Assembly (NCBI RefSeq): GCF_900091495.1
Contig: NZ_LT607413.1
Location: forward strand, 310,001-374,000
DNA length: 64,000 bases
Origin: Micromonospora echinospora
GTDB lineage: Bacteria > Actinomycetota > Actinomycetes > Mycobacteriales > Micromonosporaceae
Reading direction: 5' to 3'
Shown here: positions 22,699-33,112 of the stretch, piece by piece
How positions within the stretch are numbered: the first letter of the stretch is position 1
Layout of the letters: each line of letters starts with the position of its first letter
Made by a program: the position numbers and the translations under genes
The notes under the pieces: model-generated
What the model was told of the DNA's origin: nothing
Seen by the model: only the letters and a program-made list of their open reading frames with translations
The model's database searches: none

Positions 22699-24468
22699 AT
22701 GACCGACGACAGCCCGGTGACGACCGACGACGCGTTCGACGGCTCCGGCGAGGAGGTGGGGCGGGTCCTCGGCACCGCCGACGCCACCCCGCTCCAGTTC
22801 TGGACGGCGGTCTCCGACGGCAGCTACCTCCAGCTCGACGACGTGGTGGTGACCCGGCGCGAACTGCCCGACCGGGAGCCGGTGACCATCGCCGGGGTGG
22901 TGACCCAGGTCCGCGCCCGGCACGAGGGCGCCCAGTTCGACTCGGACGTCTTCGCCATCGCCGACGGCACCCTCCCGGCCCAGGTGCAGGAGGCCGCCGA
23001 GATCACCACCACCCGGGTCGACCCGGAGCTGTACGTCCCACCCACCCCGGGCGCGGTGGTGCGCCGCGCCGAGGGCGACGCCCGGGCCCGGGCGCTGCAC
23101 TTCGACCGGATGGAACGACGCATCCCGATGGGGACGGGCCGCGACGGGGTGCCGGTCTACCTGAACGCCGACTTCCTCGACGGCAGCCGGGGCGCGCACG
23201 TGTCGATCTCCGGCATCTCCGGGGTGGCCACCAAGACCAGCTTCGCCACCTTCCTGCTCTACTCGGTGTTCCGCTCCGGCGTGCTCGGCGGCGACGCGGT
23301 CAACGCCAAGGCGCTGATCTTCAACGTCAAGGGCGAGGACCTCCTCTTCCTCGACCACCCGAACACCCGGCTCGACGACGCCACCCGGGCGGCGTACGCG
23401 AAGCTCGGCCTGGCCGCCGGGGCCTTCCCCGACGTGCGCGTGCACGCCCCGCCCCGGGTCGGCGACTCCTCCGGCACGCCGGACGTCAGCAGCCGGCTCA
23501 CCGGCGTGGACAGCTTCTACTGGACGCTGAGCGAGTTCTGCGCCGACCGGCTCCTGCCGTACGTCTTCGCCGACGCCGACGACGAACGCCAGCAGTACAC
23601 GATGGTGGTGCACGCGGTCACCGCCCACCTGGCCCGGTACGCCCAGCCCGCCGACGGCGGGGTGAGCATCGACGGCGTCCGGCTGGGCTCCTACACCGAC
23701 CTGGTCGACCACATCGTCGAGCAGCTCAACGACGACGAGACCCGCAGCGACTGGACCGGCAGCGCGGTCGGCATCGGCACCGTCAACGCCTTCGCCCGGC
23801 GGCTGATCGGCAGCAAGAAGGACCTGGGCCGGCTGATCCGCGGCGACCTCGCCACCCGCCGTCCGCACTCGATCAACACGGCCGAGAGCGCCCAGGTCAC
23901 CGTGGTCGACCTGCACAACCTGCCGGACCGGGCGCAACGGTTCGTGGTCGGGGTGACGCTGCGCGGCGAGTTCGAGCGCAAGGAGAAGGCCGGCACCGCC
24001 CGGCCGCTGCTCTTCGTCGTCCTCGACGAGCTGAACAAGTACGCCCCCCGGGAGGGCTCCTCCCCGATCAAGGAGGTGCTGCTCGACATCGCCGAGCGGG
24101 GCCGCTCGCTCGGGGTGATCCTGGTCGGCGCGCAGCAGACGGCGAGCGAGGTGGAACGGCGGATCGTCACCAACTCGGCGATCCGGGTGGTCGGCCGGCT
24201 CGACCCGGCCGAGGCGTCCCGCCCGGAGTACGGCTTCCTCCCACCGGCCCAGCGGCAGCGGGCGCTGCTGGCCAAGCCGGGCACGATGTTCGTCAACCAG
24301 CCGGACATCCCGGTGCCGCTCTGCCTGGAGTTCCCCTTCCCGGCCTGGGCCACCCGGGTCTCCGAGGCCGGTCACGCCCCGTCGGAGACACTCCGGTCCA
24401 TCACCCAGGCCGCCGACCCGTTCGCCGTGGTCGGCTCCGGTGGCGCCGACGACGACATCCCGTTCTAG
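22699..24468 (+). CDS. herA: HerA-like DNA translocase ATPase
   Basis: 589 aa. An N-terminal beta-rich segment (about 15-125, containing QLDDVVVTRRELPDREPVTI and GVVTQVRARHEG) fits the HAS-barrel of HerA. A RecA-like ATPase domain follows. The Walker A is unusual, GISGVATKTS at 172-181 with K179. The Walker B is LLFVVLDELNKYAP (D443, E444). A sensor region reads SLGVILVGAQQTASEVE. HerA hexamers drive DNA through a NurA nuclease during end resection. This gene is 11 bp upstream of sbcD, heading sbcD-sbcC-nurA-like. Confidence 0.82.
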   Translation: MTDDSPVTTDDAFDGSGEEVGRVLGTADATPLQFWTAVSDGSYLQLDDVVVTRRELPDREPVTIAGVVTQVRARHEGAQFDSDVFAIADGTLPAQVQEAAEITTTRVDPELYVPPTPGAVVRRAEGDARARALHFDRMERRIPMGTGRDGVPVYLNADFLDGSRGAHVSISGISGVATKTSFATFLLYSVFRSGVLGGDAVNAKALIFNVKGEDLLFLDHPNTRLDDATRAAYAKLGLAAGAFPDVRVHAPPRVGDSSGTPDVSSRLTGVDSFYWTLSEFCADRLLPYVFADADDERQQYTMVVHAVTAHLARYAQPADGGVSIDGVRLGSYTDLVDHIVEQLNDDETRSDWTGSAVGIGTVNAFARRLIGSKKDLGRLIRGDLATRRPHSINTAESAQVTVVDLHNLPDRAQRFVVGVTLRGEFERKEKAGTARPLLFVVLDELNKYAPREGSSPIKEVLLDIAERGRSLGVILVGAQQTASEVERRIVTNSAIRVVGRLDPAEASRPEYGFLPPAQRQRALLAKPGTMFVNQPDIPVPLCLEFPFPAWATRVSEAGHAPSETLRSITQAADPFAVVGSGGADDDIPF

Positions 24469-24479
24469 GGGGACCACCC

Positions 24480-25631
24480 GTGAAGATCCTGCACACCTCC
24501 GACTGGCACGTCGGCAAGGTCCTCAAGGGCCAGTCCCGCGCCGAGGAGCACAAGCAGGTCCTCGCCCAGGTCATCGAGATCGCCCGGCAGGAGCGGCCCG
24601 ACCTGGTCGTGGTCGCCGGTGACCTCTACGACACCGGCTCCCCCACCCCGGAGGCCACCCGCCTGGTCACCCGGGCGTTGACGGCGCTGCGCCGCACCGG
24701 CGCGGACGTGGTCGCCATCGGCGGCAACCACGACAACGGCCCGGCCCTGGACGCGCTGCGCCCGTGGGCCGAGGCCGCCGGGATCGTGCTGCGCGGCAGC
24801 GTCCGGGACACCAACCCGGCCGACCTGGTGATCGACGGGACGACCCGGGACGGCGAGCGCTGGCAGCTCGCCGCGCTGCCCTTCCTCTCCCACCGGTACG
24901 CCGTCCGCGCGGTGGAGATGTACGAGCTGACCGCCGCCGAGGCCACCCAGACGTACGCCGACCACCTGGGGCGGGTGCTCGCCCGGCTCACCGAGGGCTT
25001 CGCCGAACCCGACCGGGTGCACCTGGTCACCGCGCACCTGACCGTGGTCGGCGCGAGCACCGGCGGCGGCGAACGGGACGCGCACACCATCATGGGATAC
25101 GCCGTCCCCGCCACGGTCTTCCCGGGCACCGCCCACTACGTGGCGCTCGGGCACCTGCACCGGGCCCAGCGGGTCGACGGGCCCTGCCCGGTGCGCTACA
25201 GCGGCAGTCCGATCGCCATCGACTTCGGCGAGCAGGAGAACGTCTGCTCGGTGACGCTGGTCGAGGTGAGCGCCCGCACCGCCGCGCAGGTCCGCGAGGT
25301 GCCGGTCTCCGCCGCGGTGCCGCTGCGCACCGTCCGGGGCACCCTGGCCCAGCTCGCCGAGCTGGAGCCGCCCGAGGGGTGGCTGCGGGTGTTCGTCCGG
25401 GAGCAGCCCCGCGCCGGGCTGCGCGAGGAGGTCCAGGATCTGCTCCCCCGGGCGCTGGAGATCCGGATCGACCCGGAGCTGGTGCCGGCCCCGGGCGGCG
25501 GGGCGCGCACCGCCCAGCGGGCCGGCCGGTCGCCGCAGCAGCTCTTCGCCGACTACCTGGCCGGTCGCGGGCACGACGACGACGGGGTGCGGGAGCTGTT
25601 CGACGAGCTGTTCGAGGAGGTCGACCGCTGA
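24480..25631 (+). CDS. sbcD: Exonuclease SbcD (Mre11 family)
   Basis: 383 aa. Mn-dependent nuclease subunit of SbcCD/Mre11-Rad50, acting on DNA hairpins and blocked ends. The metallophosphoesterase motifs are complete: HTSDWHVGK (D8, H10), VAGDLYD (D48), GGNHDN (N83-H84-D85), a VTAHLTV histidine and GHLHRAQ. The GTG start has GGGGGA 6 nt upstream. The stop overlaps the sbcC start in TGATG, and the HerA-like gene lies 11 bp upstream, so the cluster is one transcript. Confidence 0.95.
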   Translation: MKILHTSDWHVGKVLKGQSRAEEHKQVLAQVIEIARQERPDLVVVAGDLYDTGSPTPEATRLVTRALTALRRTGADVVAIGGNHDNGPALDALRPWAEAAGIVLRGSVRDTNPADLVIDGTTRDGERWQLAALPFLSHRYAVRAVEMYELTAAEATQTYADHLGRVLARLTEGFAEPDRVHLVTAHLTVVGASTGGGERDAHTIMGYAVPATVFPGTAHYVALGHLHRAQRVDGPCPVRYSGSPIAIDFGEQENVCSVTLVEVSARTAAQVREVPVSAAVPLRTVRGTLAQLAELEPPEGWLRVFVREQPRAGLREEVQDLLPRALEIRIDPELVPAPGGGARTAQRAGRSPQQLFADYLAGRGHDDDGVRELFDELFEEVDR

Positions 25632-28105
25632 TGCGCCCGATGCGGCTGGACATGGCGGGCTTCACCGTCTTCCGCGAGGAGACCACGGTCGACTTCACCG
25701 ACGCCGACTTCTTCGCGCTGGTCGGGCCGACCGGGTCGGGCAAGTCGACGGTGCTGGACGCCATCTGCTTCGCCCTCTACGGCACGGTGCCCCGTTGGGG
25801 CGGGGCGCGCGGGCTGGCCAACGCGCTCGCCCCGTCCGCCACCGAGGCCCGGGTGCGGCTGGTGTTCGAGTCCGCCGGGGACCGCTACGTCGCCACCCGG
25901 GTGGTCCGCCGGGACGGCCGGGGCACCGTCAAGACCGCCAACGCCGGGTTGCAGCTCATGCCACCCGGCTTCGACGTCACCAAGCTGGACACCGGGCTCA
26001 GCCCGGAGGATCTCGGCGAGGTGCTGGCCGGCACCCCGGCCGAGATGGAGACGGCGGTCCTGGAGGCGGTCGGGCTGCCGTACGAGCAGTTCACCAGCTG
26101 CGTGGTGCTGCCCCAGGGGCAGTTCGCGGACTTCCTGCACGCCAAGCCGGCCACCCGGCAGCAGATCCTGGTCAACCTGCTCGGCCTCGGCGTCTACGAG
26201 GAGGTGCAGAAGCGGGCCACCGAGCGGGCGGGGAAGGCCGAGGCGCGGTTGGAGCAGGTCGACCGGATCCTCGCTGGCCTGACCGACGTCGACGACGCGG
26301 CCCTGGCCGAGGCGGAGTCCACCGTCACCCGGGCGCACGAGCTGGCCGGGGCGGTCGCCGCCGCCGTACCGGAGCGGGAGCGGGCCCGGACGGCGACGCG
26401 GGAGGCACACGCGGCGCTGGCCGCCCTCGACGCCGACCTGGCGGTGCTGGACGCGGTGCGCGCGCCGGCCGGGGTGGCCGAGGTGGCCCGGGCGGTCGCG
26501 GGCGCACGGGCCGGCGTCGACCAGGCCGCGAAGGCGGTGGCGCTGGCCGAGGAACGCGAGGAGAAGCTCCGCGGCGAGCTGGCCGGGGCGGGTGACGAGA
26601 GCGCCCTGCGGCTGCTGCTGAAGGCACACGCCGACCGGGACCGGCTGACCGGCGAGGTCGAGTCGGTGGCCGCGACGGTGGCCGCGGCCGAGGCGGAGCA
26701 CGAGGCGACGATGGCGGCGCTGGCCGAGGCGCGGGCGGCGACCGAACGGGCCGAGACCGAGCTGGAGGCGGCGTTCCGGGCGCACGAGGACGCGAAGACC
26801 GCCGACCAGGCGGTGGCGCTGCGGGCGCAGCTGACCGACGGGGCGTGCTGCCCGGTGTGCGAGCAGGTGGTGCCCCGGGTGCCGGCGGTCCCGGCCGGCT
26901 CGGCGGTGGCCCGGGCCGTGGCCGCCGGGAAGGCCGCGCGGGCCGCCAGCGACGCGGCGAAGCGGCGGGCGCAGGAGTGCGACACCGCCGCCCGGGAGCG
27001 GGAACGGGCGCTGGTGCGCGTCCGGGCCCAGCACGACCAGCTGCGGGACCGCTTGGCCGAGGTGGACGCCCAGCTCGCCGGGGCCGCCACCGCCGAGGCG
27101 CTGCGGCACGACCTGGCCGAGCACGCCCGGCTGCGGACGGCCCTGGACGAGGCGGCGGGCGCGGTGCGCGCGGGGCGGGACGCCGCCCGGCGGGCCCGGG
27201 GCGCGTTCGAGGCCGCCGAGGAGGGGCTGCGGGCCGCGTGGCGGGAGTTCGACACGGTACGGGACCGGCTGGCCCGGTTCGGTCCGCCGGCCGCCGACCG
27301 GGACGACGTCGCCGCCGCCTGGACGGGTCTGGCCGGCTGGGCCGGCGGGGAGGCGGACCGGCGGCGCGCGGACCGGGTGGACCTGGTGGCGTCGGTGACG
27401 GCGGCGGAGGCCGCCGCCGAGGCGGTGGAGGACCGGATCGCCGGCATCTTCGCGGTCGCCGGGTTACCCCCCGACGACGACCCGGTCCGGGCGGCCACGG
27501 TCGCGGTGGAACGCGCCGAGGCGGCCCACCGGCGGCTGGTGGAGCGCCGCGAGCAGGCCGCCGAGCTGCGGGAGCAGCGGGCCGGACACGAGCGGGAGAC
27601 CCGGGTGGCCCGGGCGCTCGCCGGTCACCTGCGGGCCAACAACTTCGAGCGGTGGCTGCTGGCGGAGGCGCTGGACGTGCTGGTCGACGGGGCGTCCCGG
27701 ATCCTGCGGGAACTCTCCGGCGGGCAGTACGACCTGGTCCACGACAAGGGTGAGTTCTTCGTGGTCGACCACCACGACGCCGGCCTGCGGCGCGGGGTGC
27801 GGACGCTCTCCGGCGGGGAGACCTTCCAGGCTTCCCTGGCACTGGCGCTCGCGTTGTCCGAGCAGCTCGCCGGCCTCTCCACGACGGCGGCGAGCCTGGA
27901 GTCGATCGTGCTGGACGAGGGGTTCGGCACCCTCGACGCGGCCACCCTGGACACGGTGGCCGCCACCCTGGAGAGCCTGGCCGCCCGGGGCGACCGGATG
28001 GTCGGGGTGGTCACCCACGTGCCGGCGCTCGCCGAGCGGATCCCGGTGCGCTTCGAGGTCCGCAAGGACGCCCGCAGCGCCCGCGTCGAACGGAGTGGCC
28101 TGTGA
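25631..28105 (+). CDS. sbcC: Exonuclease SbcC (Rad50 family)
   Basis: 824 aa. ABC/SMC-type ATPase partner of SbcD. The Walker A GPTGSGKST (32-40) follows the usual DFTDADFFALV strand, and VVLPQGQFADFLHAKPATRQ is the Q-loop region. A long Ala/Glu/Arg-rich coiled coil is broken at its apex by the zinc hook CPVC (407-410). The C-terminus carries the signature LSGGETFQASLALALALSEQ and Walker B SIVLDEGFGTLD. It is shorter than the 1,000-residue E. coli SbcC because the coiled coil is short, as in many actinobacteria. Confidence 0.95.
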   Translation: MRPMRLDMAGFTVFREETTVDFTDADFFALVGPTGSGKSTVLDAICFALYGTVPRWGGARGLANALAPSATEARVRLVFESAGDRYVATRVVRRDGRGTVKTANAGLQLMPPGFDVTKLDTGLSPEDLGEVLAGTPAEMETAVLEAVGLPYEQFTSCVVLPQGQFADFLHAKPATRQQILVNLLGLGVYEEVQKRATERAGKAEARLEQVDRILAGLTDVDDAALAEAESTVTRAHELAGAVAAAVPERERARTATREAHAALAALDADLAVLDAVRAPAGVAEVARAVAGARAGVDQAAKAVALAEEREEKLRGELAGAGDESALRLLLKAHADRDRLTGEVESVAATVAAAEAEHEATMAALAEARAATERAETELEAAFRAHEDAKTADQAVALRAQLTDGACCPVCEQVVPRVPAVPAGSAVARAVAAGKAARAASDAAKRRAQECDTAARERERALVRVRAQHDQLRDRLAEVDAQLAGAATAEALRHDLAEHARLRTALDEAAGAVRAGRDAARRARGAFEAAEEGLRAAWREFDTVRDRLARFGPPAADRDDVAAAWTGLAGWAGGEADRRRADRVDLVASVTAAEAAAEAVEDRIAGIFAVAGLPPDDDPVRAATVAVERAEAAHRRLVERREQAAELREQRAGHERETRVARALAGHLRANNFERWLLAEALDVLVDGASRILRELSGGQYDLVHDKGEFFVVDHHDAGLRRGVRTLSGGETFQASLALALALSEQLAGLSTTAASLESIVLDEGFGTLDAATLDTVAATLESLAARGDRMVGVVTHVPALAERIPVRFEVRKDARSARVERSGL

Positions 28106-28157
28106 GCGCGAGGAGTGAGCTTGCGAGCCCCGCAGTCGCGAACGGAAGGCTGACCCG

Positions 28158-29135
28158 ATGAGTGGGGCGGGTCGTCCGCAGTTCTTCGTGGACGCGTGGG
28201 ACCCGGCGTATGGGGCGTCGTTCGAGGCGTCCCCGGGTGGCCCGGCCGCGCCGAGCAGTGCCCAGGTCGACCCGGACGTGGAGCTGCCGGCGGCGGACTG
28301 GCGGGCGCTCGGTCCCCGGGACGGGGTTCACGCCCCCGAGGTGGTGCTCCTGGTCGACGGGGTGCGCCGGATCGACGCCAGCGTCTGGACGGCCGAGTCC
28401 GACGGGGTCTCCTACCCGGGCGTGGCGGCGTCGTACGCGGCCGGTGTGGTCCGTTGTGACCTGGGGCGGGGCGCGGCGGAGATGGCCGGCGCCCGGGTGG
28501 CCCGGGGGCTCTTTACGGCCAGCCCGTCGGCGCAGGAGATGGTCGCCGGGTCGGTGCGGTACCCGGTGCACCGGGTCGGCGGCAGCGGCGAGCTGAGCAA
28601 GCTGCCGGCCGCCGTGCAGGGCCCGCTGACCGCGCTGGAGGTGGCGGTCTCCGACGCCGCCCGGACCGACGGTGACCTGCTGGTGGTGGACGGGCCGCTG
28701 CGGGCCCGGCGGCAGTTGCCCCGCACCCTCGGGTACGTCAAGACCCAGCACAGCCAGTACCTCGACGCCCGGCTGACGGCGGTGGTGACCGGGATGGCGC
28801 CGGGGCAGCGGTGTCCGGTGTTCCGGCTCCGGGTGGGCACCGGCTGGGGTGGCTGGTCGTGGTATCTGCGGCTGCCGGTGGCGCGGGGCGCGCCGTGGGC
28901 CGGCATCGTCCGGGTGGAGTGCTCGCCCGACCTGGAGCCCACCGACGCGATCGCCCTGGCCGACCTCTCCCTGGTCACCCTCCCCCGGTTCGCCTCCACC
29001 CCGTACAAGGATCCGCGCGCCCCGCAGAACCTGGTCCCGATCGCCGGCCTGGAACGCCGGCTGCGCGCCCTGCTCGGCGACGCCCGCCTGCTGCACCGGG
29101 CGCTCTCCGCCGCCGCGCGCCGCGCCCGCCGCTGA
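28158..29135 (+). CDS. NurA-like nuclease-domain protein
   Basis: 325 aa. The motif order resembles the NurA nuclease fold: VVLLVDGVRRIDA (D67), ALEVAVSD (E161), DGDLLVVDGPL (D178), a GYVKTQHSQYL segment (K195), WYLRLP (Y237) and a C-terminal LVPIAGLERRLRALLGD helix. NurA is the 5'-3' exonuclease that works with HerA and Mre11-Rad50 in archaea. It sits 52 bp after sbcC with GGAAGG before the ATG, at the end of a herA-sbcD-sbcC run. Such proteins are easily left as hypothetical in actinobacteria. The call combines motif resemblance with context and has not been aligned. Confidence 0.62.
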   Translation: MSGAGRPQFFVDAWDPAYGASFEASPGGPAAPSSAQVDPDVELPAADWRALGPRDGVHAPEVVLLVDGVRRIDASVWTAESDGVSYPGVAASYAAGVVRCDLGRGAAEMAGARVARGLFTASPSAQEMVAGSVRYPVHRVGGSGELSKLPAAVQGPLTALEVAVSDAARTDGDLLVVDGPLRARRQLPRTLGYVKTQHSQYLDARLTAVVTGMAPGQRCPVFRLRVGTGWGGWSWYLRLPVARGAPWAGIVRVECSPDLEPTDAIALADLSLVTLPRFASTPYKDPRAPQNLVPIAGLERRLRALLGDARLLHRALSAAARRARR

Positions 29136-29218
29136 CCGGCGACCGGCGACCGGCGACCGGCGACCGGCGACCGGCGACCGGCGACCGGCGACCGGCGACC
29201 GGCGACCGGCGACCGGCG
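29135..29218. repeat. Heptanucleotide tandem repeat, ACCGGCG x 12
   Basis: Twelve perfect 7-bp units run from the last base of the NurA-like stop codon to 15 bp before the next gene. A 7-bp unit cannot stay in one frame, so this is not coding. Confidence 0.95.
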
Positions 29219-29220
29219 AG

Positions 29221-30154: not shown

Positions 30155-30160
30155 GTGCCG

Positions 30161-31063
30161 GTGACCGCCACCCGGATCCTGCGTCCGCCGCCGGAGCACC
30201 GGTTCGCCGAGACGGTACGCGCGCTGACCTTCAGCCCGTACGACCCGTGCGCCCGGATCGCCGCCGGGGCGTTCTGGTGGGCGACCCGCACGCCGGACGG
30301 GCCGGCCACCCTGTGCCTGCGCCGCCACGACGGCGACCTGCTCGCCGAGGGGCACGGGCCGGGCGCCGACTGGGTGGTGGAGCGCGCCGGGGCCATTGCC
30401 GGCCTGCGCGACGACCTGACCGGTTTCGCCGACCTGGCCGGCCGGCACCCGGTGGTGTCCCGGCTGGCCGCCCGCCACCGGGGGCTGCGGATGCCGGCCA
30501 CCGGCCGGGTCTTCCGGCAGTTGCTGCGCACGGTTCTGGAACAGAAGGTCACCGGCAAGGAGGCGTACCGGGCCTACGCGGCGACGGTCCGGCACTTCGC
30601 CGAGCCCGCGCCGGGGCCGTTCCCGCTGCTGCTGCCGCCCGACCCGGCGGCGGTGGCCGCCGCGCCGTACTGGGTGTTCCACCCGTTCGGGGTGGAACAG
30701 CGGCGGGCCGAGACGCTCCGCCGGGTCGCCGCCCTCGCCGACCGGCTGGAGGCGTGCGCGGACGCCGCCGAGGCGACCCGGCGGCTGACCGCGATCCCCG
30801 GCATCGGCCCGTGGAGCGTCGCCGAGGTGGTCCGGATCGCGTACGGCGACCCGGACGCGGTGAGCGTCGGCGACTACCACGTGCCGAACACGGTGAGCTG
30901 GGCGCTGGCCGGTGAGGCGCGCGGGGACGACGCGCGGATGCTGGCGCTGCTGGAGCCGTTCCGGGGGCACCGGGGACGGGTCTGCCTGCTGCTGGCCGTC
31001 GAGGGCGTGCACGCGCCCCGCTTCGGGCCGAGGATGCCGCTGCGCTCCTTCGCGACCTACTGA
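30161..31063 (+). CDS. alkA: DNA-3-methyladenine glycosylase AlkA-type
   Basis: 300 aa. Base-excision repair glycosylase of the helix-hairpin-helix GPD superfamily. The HhH and catalytic region reads LTAIPGIGPWSVAEVV followed by SVGDYHVPN, with catalytic aspartate D238. RQLLRTVLEQKVTGKEAY is the conserved helix lining the DNA site. Length and order fit AlkA-like enzymes that remove alkylated purines. An in-frame GTG at 30155 is possible, but the -10 spacing favours 30161. It is convergent with the next gene and overlaps it by 7 bp. Confidence 0.85.
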   Translation: MTATRILRPPPEHRFAETVRALTFSPYDPCARIAAGAFWWATRTPDGPATLCLRRHDGDLLAEGHGPGADWVVERAGAIAGLRDDLTGFADLAGRHPVVSRLAARHRGLRMPATGRVFRQLLRTVLEQKVTGKEAYRAYAATVRHFAEPAPGPFPLLLPPDPAAVAAAPYWVFHPFGVEQRRAETLRRVAALADRLEACADAAEATRRLTAIPGIGPWSVAEVVRIAYGDPDAVSVGDYHVPNTVSWALAGEARGDDARMLALLEPFRGHRGRVCLLLAVEGVHAPRFGPRMPLRSFATY

Positions 31064-31572
31064 CCCGGTCCGCCGGCCCGGCGGCAGAGCCGACGCAGGG
31101 TGGCCGCCAGCCAGCGGGCGTACCCGTGTTGGAAGGCCCGCCCGGCGGGGCCGGCCGCCCGCATGATCCAGCGTTCCGGACGGCTGAACGCGCGGATCTC
31201 GAACCAGACCCGGCCCGCGTCGTCGCGTTCCACCACGAACGCCTCCTCGCCGGCCGCCGGGTGACCGGGGAGCGTGCCGTACCCGAAACCGGCCCGGCGG
31301 TCGTCGTCGGCGGCCCAGACCACCTCGCACGGGGCGGCGAGCCGCAGCGGGCCGATGCCCAGCCCGGAGGTGACGGCGACGCCCGGCGCGGCCCGGGGCG
31401 CGTCGGCGGTGATCCGGACCCCGGCGGCGCGGTGCAGCCGCCAGGTGAGCACGGCCGTACCCGCCACCGCGAAGCAGCCGTCGGGAAGCCGGACCCGGTG
31501 CCGCACGTGCCGCCAGCCCGCCGGCAGGTCCCCGGTGCGGGTGGCCCCGACGTGCGGGTAGGTCAGCGGCAC
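31057..31572 (-). CDS. DUF1990 family protein
   Basis: 171 aa. It matches the DUF1990 pattern: PLTYPHVGAT at the start, a WRHVRHRVRLPDG strand, GFGYGTLPGHPAAGEEAF and a WFEIRAFSRPERWIMR C-terminal segment. The family is usually annotated as unknown. I chose GTG 31572 because GGAGG lies 5 nt upstream; GTG 31578 is the alternative. The last 7 bp overlap the end of alkA on the other strand. Confidence 0.75.
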   Translation of the reverse strand: MPLTYPHVGATRTGDLPAGWRHVRHRVRLPDGCFAVAGTAVLTWRLHRAAGVRITADAPRAAPGVAVTSGLGIGPLRLAAPCEVVWAADDDRRAGFGYGTLPGHPAAGEEAFVVERDDAGRVWFEIRAFSRPERWIMRAAGPAGRAFQHGYARWLAATLRRLCRRAGGPGQ

Positions 31573-31663
31573 GGGCACCTCCGGGGTTCGGCGCGGACCC
31601 GGCAAGCGTACGGCCGCCGCCGGCGGCGCGGAGCGGCCCGCGCGAACCGCCGGCCCGGCCGGC

Positions 31664-31876
31664 TCAGGCCGCCTCGCGCAGATCGGCCAGGGTCAGCGGG
31701 GTACGCCGGGTCAGCAGGTCCGCCAGCTCGGGGATCGATCCGGCCTCGCCGAGGACGTCCTTGCCACCACCGAACTCCGGGCGGTAGCGGCGCACCAGCC
31801 GGTAGCGGTACCGGCCCCGGATCAGCTCCGCGGTGACCCGCCAGCGCCCGCAGCAGCCGCAGACGAACTCGCGCAC
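31664..31876 (-). CDS. Small protein with CxCC motif, divergent from the ligase gene
   Basis: 70 aa from GTG 31876. The N-terminus reads VREFVCGCCGRWRVTAELI, followed by an Arg/Tyr-rich stretch (RGRYRYRLVRRYRPE). A C-terminal helix reads ELADLLTRRTPLTLADL. The three cysteines could bind a metal, but the set is incomplete for a classic zinc ribbon. A -10 (TACCGT, minus strand) ends exactly 6 nt before the GTG, which supports the start. Function unknown. Confidence 0.55.
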   Translation of the reverse strand: MREFVCGCCGRWRVTAELIRGRYRYRLVRRYRPEFGGGKDVLGEAGSIPELADLLTRRTPLTLADLREAA

Positions 31877-31882
31877 CCGGCG

Positions 31883-31888
31883 ACGGTA
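31883..31888 (-). promoter_or_regulatory. -10 element of a leaderless promoter (70-aa protein)
   Basis: TACCGT on the minus strand, ending 6 nt before GTG 31876. Confidence 0.5.
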
Positions 31889-32011
31889 GCTCTGACCTGC
31901 GCTTTTCCGGATCGACCACCGGTGACGGACACCCCCGACGCGGGACACACGGCACCGGACGCGACCGTGATGTGCCTCACCGTCGTCGGTCCCGTCTGGT
32001 TGACTGTCGCC

Positions 32012-33112
32012 GTGGAGCTGCCGCTGAACCCGCCGGTCGAGCCGATGCTGGCCAAGAGCGTCGCCCGGATCCCCACCGGGGAGCAGATGACCTACGAGCC
32101 GAAGTGGGACGGGTTCCGGTGCATCGTCTTCCGGGACGGCGACTCCGTCGAGCTGGCCAGCCGGGGCGGCAAGATGATGACCCGGTATTTTCCCGAGGTC
32201 GTCGAGCAGGCCCGTGCGCAGTTGCCGGAGCGCTGCGCGGTCGACGGCGAGTTGATCGTGATCCGGCGCGACGGCCCCGACGGGCAGCCCCGGCTCGACT
32301 TCGAACTGCTCGCCCAGCGGATCCACCCGGCCGCGTCCCGGGTGCGGCTGCTCGCCGAGACCACCCCCGCCGACTTCGTCGCCTTCGACCTGCTGGCGAT
32401 CGACGACGAGGTGCTGCTCGACCGGCCCTACCCGCAGCGCCGGGCCCGGCTGGAGGCCGCGCTGGCCGGGGTGCGTCCACCGGTGCACGTCACCCCGGTC
32501 ACCACCGACCTGGAGACCGCACGTCGGTGGTTCGACGTCTTCGAGGGCGCCGGCCTGGACGGGTTGATCGCCAAGCCGGCCGACCTGCCGTACGAGCCGG
32601 GCAAGCGGCTCATGTTCAAGGTCAAGCACGCCCGCACCGCCGACGTGGTGGTGGCCGGCTTCCGCTGGTACAAGTCCGGGCCGGTGGTCGGCTCGCTGCT
32701 GCTCGGCCTCTACGACACGCAGGGCCTGCTCCACCACGTCGGGGTCTGCGCCTCGTTCACCATGGCCCGCCGCAAGGAGCTGCTGACCGAGCTGGAACCG
32801 TACCGGGACGTCGGCGACGACCACCCGTGGGCGCACGGCGACCACGCGCGCGGCCAGCGCATCCCGGGCGGGGTGAGCCGCTGGACCGGCGGCAAGAACC
32901 TGGAGTGGGAGCCGCTGCGCCCGGAGCTGGTGGTGGAGGTCGGCTACGACGCGATGGAGGGCGACCGCTTCCGGCACACCGCCCAGTTCGTCCGCTGGCG
33001 GCCCGACCGCGACCCCCGCTCCTGCGGGTACGACCAGTTGGAACGCCCGGTCCGCTTCGACGTCGACCAGGTGCTGCGCGGTGATCCGGTGCCGACGACC
33101 GAGCCGAGCTGA
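32012..33112 (+). CDS. ligC: ATP-dependent DNA ligase LigC-type
   Basis: 366 aa. Nucleotidyltransferase plus OB-fold ligase. The adenylated lysine lies in YEPKWDGFR (K31). RCAVDGELIV and ADFVAFDLLA are the next motifs, followed by GLDGLIAKP and LMFKVKHARTADVVV (motifs IV-V). Length and the MELPLNPPVEPML start match actinobacterial LigC, which backs up nucleotide-repair and end-joining ligation. GTG 32012 was chosen over an upstream GTG at 31922 for that reason. The LigD polymerase domain is encoded separately at 37773-38798. Confidence 0.9.
   Translation: MELPLNPPVEPMLAKSVARIPTGEQMTYEPKWDGFRCIVFRDGDSVELASRGGKMMTRYFPEVVEQARAQLPERCAVDGELIVIRRDGPDGQPRLDFELLAQRIHPAASRVRLLAETTPADFVAFDLLAIDDEVLLDRPYPQRRARLEAALAGVRPPVHVTPVTTDLETARRWFDVFEGAGLDGLIAKPADLPYEPGKRLMFKVKHARTADVVVAGFRWYKSGPVVGSLLLGLYDTQGLLHHVGVCASFTMARRKELLTELEPYRDVGDDHPWAHGDHARGQRIPGGVSRWTGGKNLEWEPLRPELVVEVGYDAMEGDRFRHTAQFVRWRPDRDPRSCGYDQLERPVRFDVDQVLRGDPVPTTEPS

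Follow-up and report, generated by a model that had tools for sequence, protein, structure and literature searches.

A probable HerA-SbcD-SbcC-NurA operon for DNA-end resection in Micromonospora echinospora and its family

Introduction

In archaea, herA, nurA, mre11 and rad50 form one gene cluster (PMC2288612; PMC4351679), and the title of the first of these papers announces an interaction between Mre11 and HerA. Among bacteria, the HerA-NurA complex of Deinococcus radiodurans has been solved (PDB 7f6d, 7wrw, 7wrx) and its proteins are reported to resect the 5' strand in vitro (PMC9960219), while its possible cooperation with SbcCD, the bacterial counterpart of Mre11-Rad50, is described as still to be uncovered in that organism (PMC4663267). 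In Thermus, nurA precedes hepA, and in Oceanithermus profundus homologues of sbcD and sbcC lie downstream of hepA, an arrangement that the authors liken to the archaeal operon and take as a recruitment of SbcCD at the level of the genus (PMC5448004). Here, we analyse a stretch of 64,000 nucleotides from the actinobacterium Micromonospora echinospora (contig NZ_LT607413.1, positions 310,001 to 374,000 of the forward strand; the window in what follows), in which genes for HerA-, SbcD-, SbcC- and NurA-like proteins stand in a row, and we report on the identity of the four proteins, the conservation of their catalytic residues, the linkage of their genes and the separate lineage of SbcD that accompanies HerA-NurA. 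The four genes are the following:

22699..24468, + strand: herA, 589 amino acids, predicted HerA translocase, from a phmmer match to chain 7f6d_B and the mapping of its residues to D. radiodurans HerA (drHerA)
24480..25631, + strand: sbcD (bacterial Mre11), 383 amino acids, GTG start, matching TIGR00619 over the cut-off (E 9.7e-53)
25631..28105, + strand: sbcC (bacterial Rad50), 824 amino acids, short-armed, zinc-hook motif CPVC at residue 407, matching TIGR00618 (E 2.5e-76)
28158..29135, + strand: nurA, 325 amino acids, predicted nuclease of RNase H-like fold, from chain 7f6d_H, a family profile and Foldseek

As the coordinates of the open reading frames (ORFs) confirm, all four genes run in one direction, with spacings of +11 bp (herA/sbcD), -1 (a 1-bp overlap, sbcD/sbcC) and +52 bp (sbcC/nurA), as an initial, sequence-only reading of the window had described. 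We place the start of sbcC at position 25631 (ATG), whereas the frame in the program-made ORF list begins further upstream, at 24764.

The locus resembles each of the described systems in part. With D. radiodurans it shares an alignable HerA with the same Walker A motif, the NurA fold and three residues on which NurA activity is reported to depend; it differs in that sbcD and sbcC sit between herA and nurA, the word "SbcC" being absent from the main text of the D. radiodurans paper (PMC9960219). As in Oceanithermus, sbcD and sbcC follow a HerA gene in a bacterium, with the difference that nurA comes last in the window, its place in Oceanithermus not being stated in the text of that study (PMC5448004). 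The same four functions are united in the archaeal cluster, from which the window differs by an SbcD of bacterial type (TIGR00619, E about 1e-52, versus 1e-14 at best for archaeal Mre11 models).

Identity of HerA and NurA

The fourth gene encodes a predicted NurA nuclease with an RNase H-like fold. In a search of PDB sequences, its product matches 7f6d_H, the NurA of the D. radiodurans HerA-NurA complex, with E 7e-22, and a family profile of 32 members (the window protein together with 31 relatives that are 29-87% identical, several of which bear the UniRef name "NurA domain-containing protein") matches the same chain with E 2.2e-52 and Thermotoga maritima TM1739 (PDB 1zup) with E 9.1e-20. When Foldseek was run with the predicted model of the protein, itself of moderate quality, the first three matches were 7f6d_G (E 2.9e-14) and two 1zup chains (1zup_A, E 7.7e-12); together with the profile match, these bear out the NurA fold that had been supposed for this protein. 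The fold is thus common to TM1739 and the window protein, with merely 20-22% identity over the Foldseek alignments. Five residues, D67, E161, D178, K195 and R287, are invariant over the 32 aligned members. From the motif order put forward in the sequence-only reading, D67, E161, D178 and K195 are thereby retained, and Y237 has to give way to Y236, which is the invariant tyrosine. Residues D53, K201 and R309 of D. radiodurans NurA map to D67, K195 and R287 (the numbering of chain 7f6d_H being that of the paper + 20), and it has been reported that the nuclease activity of the D53A, K201A and R309A complexes is wholly lost (PMC9960219).

Judged from its sequence, the first gene is that of a Deinococcus-type (bacterial) HerA translocase. 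Its product aligns with drHerA (7f6d_B) with E 4.3e-149 and 500.7 bits (phmmer, PDB sequences) over the stretches 17-296 and 324-557, and HerA and NurA hence match two kinds of chain in one solved complex (7f6d). The Walker A motif GISGVATKTS, which had been called atypical, turns out to be the same ten residues in drHerA and is therefore normal for a bacterial HerA of this type. Window residues K179/T180 of this motif and D443/E444 of the Walker B motif align with drHerA K175/T176, which contact the nucleotide and Mg (PMC9960219), and with D487/E488; likewise, the DNA-translocation arginines R451 and R508 correspond to R495 and R552, and D214 to D220, so that seven of the eight drHerA residues compared are conserved. 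As to the HAS-barrel region, the alignment to drHerA begins at residue 17, and the predicted model is too poor to judge it. The genome of the window (one contig of 7.78 Mb) contains a single HerA match, and the nearest relatives among the matches listed are mostly Micromonospora proteins.

Conservation of the cluster

Within the family of the window, all 61 sampled genomes have both HerA and an SbcD match. In 55 of them, the SbcD match starts no more than 144 bp behind HerA, in five it starts within 10 kb, and in the remaining one it lies on a different contig. Named loci with NurA were also surveyed, namely the best 80 out of at least 545, and we take these 80 to be Micromonosporaceae throughout. 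SbcD is present in 70 of them, and these include SbcC in every case and HerA in 69 (in L102 the contig ends before HerA); in the other ten, no more than 1.1 kb separate NurA from the end of the contig. The surroundings are also shared, a pyrimidine reductase gene (PF01872) lying upstream in 57 of the 63 full-length loci and a glycosylase-like gene downstream in 45 of 63. The four-gene cluster looks like a regular possession of the family of this soil actinobacterium and not an oddity.

Across the phylum, 198 genomes including that of the window were sampled, with thresholds (NurA above 60 bits, HerA above 150 bits) chosen once the scores were known; the counts exclude two NurA rows, at 25.2 and 18.6 bits, as well as eight genomes whose HerA rows remain below 60 bits. 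NurA is found in 45 genomes and HerA in 46, and because all 45 NurA-bearing genomes have HerA, the clustering is above chance. In G070, the genome with HerA only, the contig ends just behind SbcD. In 42 of the 45 genomes, HerA, SbcD and NurA share a strand and fit into 25 kb, and they do so in two orders, HerA-SbcD-NurA (13) and NurA-HerA-SbcD (29); the genes are linked and conserved together in the actinobacteria sampled. In G135, NurA and HerA are adjacent and SbcD was not found. Among 20 loci that were read, 17 match all four genes, some of the matches being partial, and the exceptions are L044 and L046, which are without some of the genes on the contig, and L049, without HerA in the stretch read. 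This breadth suggests that the cluster may be older than the recruitment by a single genus, or may have spread as a unit.

More distant forms exist as well. In 16 genomes of one family (f16), HerA is diverged (60-150 bits) and the sequence search gives no NurA; with a profile, a diverged NurA was detected beside the diverged HerA at the five loci read (L155-L158 and L163), and at L158 archaeal Mre11 models give the best scores for an SbcD-like gene. In another family (f4), neither HerA nor NurA was found in the seven listed genomes.

Some individual loci deserve mention in their own right. L160 (289-8594, G146:C15) holds a second, diverged NurA-HerA-SbcD-SbcC set adjoined by a HigA/IrrE-like regulator; the same genome carries the normal set as well. 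HerA lies in broken or split frames at G114:C5:170666-172299, G369:C1:2574046-2575757 and G375:C1:4595975-4597707, and the NurA match of L120 contains a stop codon, from sequencing error or decay in either case.

A separate lineage of SbcCD

NCBIfam profiles confirm both SbcD and SbcC of the window, the latter matching TIGR00618 with 257.5 bits, under the curated cut-off of 478.5 bits. When 45 SbcD rows are placed in a tree, 27 HerA-linked and three unlinked proteins stand apart from 15 canonical ones (among them E. coli SbcD and a second copy from the genome of the window), with three label changes versus a shuffled mean of 14.3; L160 and E. coli have very long branches. The HerA-linked SbcD is thus a lineage separate from the canonical actinobacterial SbcD.

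A difference in arm length goes along with this division. In the phylum loci, linked SbcC proteins have 772-877 amino acids and a CPVC hook at about 378-410, apart from L059 (1012 amino acids), L160 (1019 amino acids, hook not found by pattern) and the cut L044, and in the 70 family loci their median is 824 (range 501-852, the low values unchecked for broken frames). Canonical SbcC proteins have 987-1138 amino acids, with a hook found in 12 of 15 (E. coli included), mostly at 513-532 and in the remainder at 500 (E. coli) or 553-623. The short SbcC tracks the SbcD lineage only roughly: L174, unlinked and within the linked SbcD lineage, has a long SbcC of 1067 amino acids, and L176, with no HerA in the locus, a short one of 792.

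The genome of the window possesses a second, canonical SbcCD of 393 and 1016 amino acids (G000:C1, about 7.402-7.408 Mb; L166, 2458-8093), adjoined by a gene of the phage integrase family. With this second SbcD as query, the 60 other family genomes yield no canonical actinobacterial SbcD, their best scores being 94-143 bits. For control, 13 canonical actinobacterial SbcDs give 163-385 bits with the same query, and 70 linked family SbcDs give 111-142 bits; E. coli SbcD gives only 144 bits, so that a very distant canonical SbcD could hide in these 60 genomes. A single SbcD match is present in 57 of them, second matches occurring in G368 (72.8 bits, G368:C11:57369-58250, in addition to a HerA-linked one) and, as short matches, in G361 (25.6 bits) and G356 (22.7 bits). 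In the phylum sample, a canonical-type SbcD above 50 bits is present besides in only two of the 45 NurA genomes, G000 and G183. From these SbcD searches, the HerA-linked SbcCD would as a rule be the sole one in the family, and the second copy of the window's genome was probably acquired, since none of the 60 other genomes reaches the canonical actinobacterial level. We also considered that the linked SbcCD could be a specialised extra beside a housekeeping copy, and rejected this, no canonical SbcD having been found in those 60 genomes.

Proposed mechanism and alternative explanations

The operon is genuine and well conserved, and it most likely encodes a DNA-repair machine of known type. We estimate at about 0.82 the probability that it is a bacterial HerA-SbcD-SbcC-NurA operon for DNA-end resection with the mechanism proposed here. 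The core of the initial reading is upheld by the homology to the solved D. radiodurans complex, by the conserved catalytic residues and by the fact that the genes are linked throughout the phylum sample in either of two orders. In this mechanism, which extends the linkage of the genes and the precedent of D. radiodurans, SbcCD would probably bind a broken end and open or trim it, and would then hand it over to HerA-NurA. The HerA hexamer would then pump the duplex into the NurA dimer, and NurA would degrade the 5' strand, leaving a 3' tail for RecA. The four genes would be expressed as one transcript, the operon would act in recombination repair, and SbcCD may be physically coupled to HerA-NurA.

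Several observations weigh against this reading. Neither the first nor the fourth product alone matches Pfam (no HerA match for the former, no NurA match, PF09376, for the latter), and the identification that had been hoped for from such searches came instead from the NurA profile and the PDB searches; PF09376 matches 19 of the 32 members of the NurA alignment at E up to 1, the best at 2.2e-6. The predicted structures are of limited quality, with a mean predicted local distance difference test (pLDDT) score of 64.5 for NurA and a low-confidence 43.4 for HerA, the latter model being left unused for fold searches. One compared residue, R96 of drHerA, is not kept and corresponds to E101, a position whose mutation in drHerA is reported to be without effect (PMC9960219). 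In G097 and G183, the genes of the set are split between contigs. The operon start has no clear SOS-box-like site in an SOS-box scan, the nearest match, at 22724 and with three mismatches, being inside herA; single weak matches of this kind mean little because the pattern exceeds shuffles window-wide (44 versus a mean of 21.4). Finally, the role of bacterial NurA-HerA is itself described as controversial; deletions are reported to result in modest or even improved resistance (PMC9960219).

The alternative that survives best is that HerA-NurA and SbcCD share a neighbourhood or a transcript only and serve separate pathways. Linkage by itself is no proof of contact, the link of SbcCD to HerA-NurA in D. 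radiodurans is stated to be untested (PMC4663267), and a distance of about 1.5-14 kb separates HerA from SbcD in ten of the 42 linked genomes, which also weakens the case for a single machine. However, the functions stay together in two gene orders and, in another family, at loci with an Mre11-like gene near the diverged NurA-HerA pair, and the linked SbcD is a lineage of its own; we hence regard separate pathways as unlikely.

It had also been suggested that the operon could be an alternative to AdnAB or RecBCD, that is, the main end-resection machine in their stead. This would fit the 15 of 45 NurA-positive genomes that have neither an AdnA/B-like long frame nor a RecD over the cut-off. The genome of the window, however, encodes two adjacent UvrD-type ORFs of 1162 and 1148 amino acids with PDDEXK domains, a pair that we take to be AdnAB-like. 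Moreover, AdnA/B-like frames of at least 900 amino acids are found in 25 of the 45 NurA-positive and 37 of the 153 NurA-negative genomes, and RecD over the cut-off about equally, in 6 of 45 and 24 of 153; in these counts, which ignore kinship, the AdnA/B query was one nuclease domain from the window's genome, and distant AdnAB may be missed. The association of NurA with AdnA/B-like frames or RecD is thus positive or absent and not negative, which speaks against mutual replacement and leaves the substitution highly improbable.

A function in anti-phage defence, as in the HerA-Sir2, HerA-DUF4297 or TdpAB systems of the HerA class, had been envisaged too and deserves hardly any credence, for the matches that recall it (PADLOC HerA models, at best E 2.3e-5 for HerA and 4e-8 for mads_8; Rad50-like defence models for SbcC, mads_3 E 7e-27 and LmuB E 1.3e-19; a weak fourth Foldseek match of the NurA model to a TdpAB chain, E 4.6e-4) are far weaker than those to repair proteins, PADLOC run on the four proteins gives no match for NurA and no effector partner such as Sir2 or DUF4297 among the rows listed (for SbcC, 25 of 60), and neither the universal, not patchy, presence of HerA in the sampled family genomes nor the same pyrimidine reductase gene nearby in 57 of 63 full-length loci suits a module of this type.

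Neighbouring sequences

A perfect 7-bp tandem repeat, GACCGGC in 12.3 copies (window 29134-29219), lies at the stop codon of nurA and in the intergenic stretch that follows. Further downstream (window 30155-33112) follow a gene weakly similar to DNA-3-methyladenine glycosylase 2 and an ATP-dependent DNA ligase gene (PRK08224), so that several DNA-repair genes are gathered in the region.

Significance

The linkage of HerA with SbcCD in a bacterium is already in print for Oceanithermus (PMC5448004); the present analysis adds how widely it extends in actinobacteria, that nurA can stand last, and that the linked SbcD belongs to a lineage of its own. An actinobacterial operon, including HerA and NurA in Micromonospora, was not found in our literature searches, which were partial, and we make no claim that it is absent from print. 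In a family with HerA in every sampled genome, SbcD mostly directly behind it and a canonical SbcD usually missing, the relation between SbcCD and HerA-NurA becomes a question that genetics can test. With the operon, actinobacteria also gain one more machine of the resection type in addition to AdnAB.

Beyond this, one may tentatively imagine, although the odds are rather against it, that the linked short-armed SbcCD is the dedicated end-loading subunit of a single HerA-NurA-SbcCD complex, which would have taken over all the work of SbcCD in Micromonosporaceae. If so, SbcCD in this family would as a rule exist solely as part of a translocase-nuclease machine, and its shorter arms (hook at about 380-410 versus mostly about 515) would fit docking onto the HerA ring and not the tethering of ends over long range.

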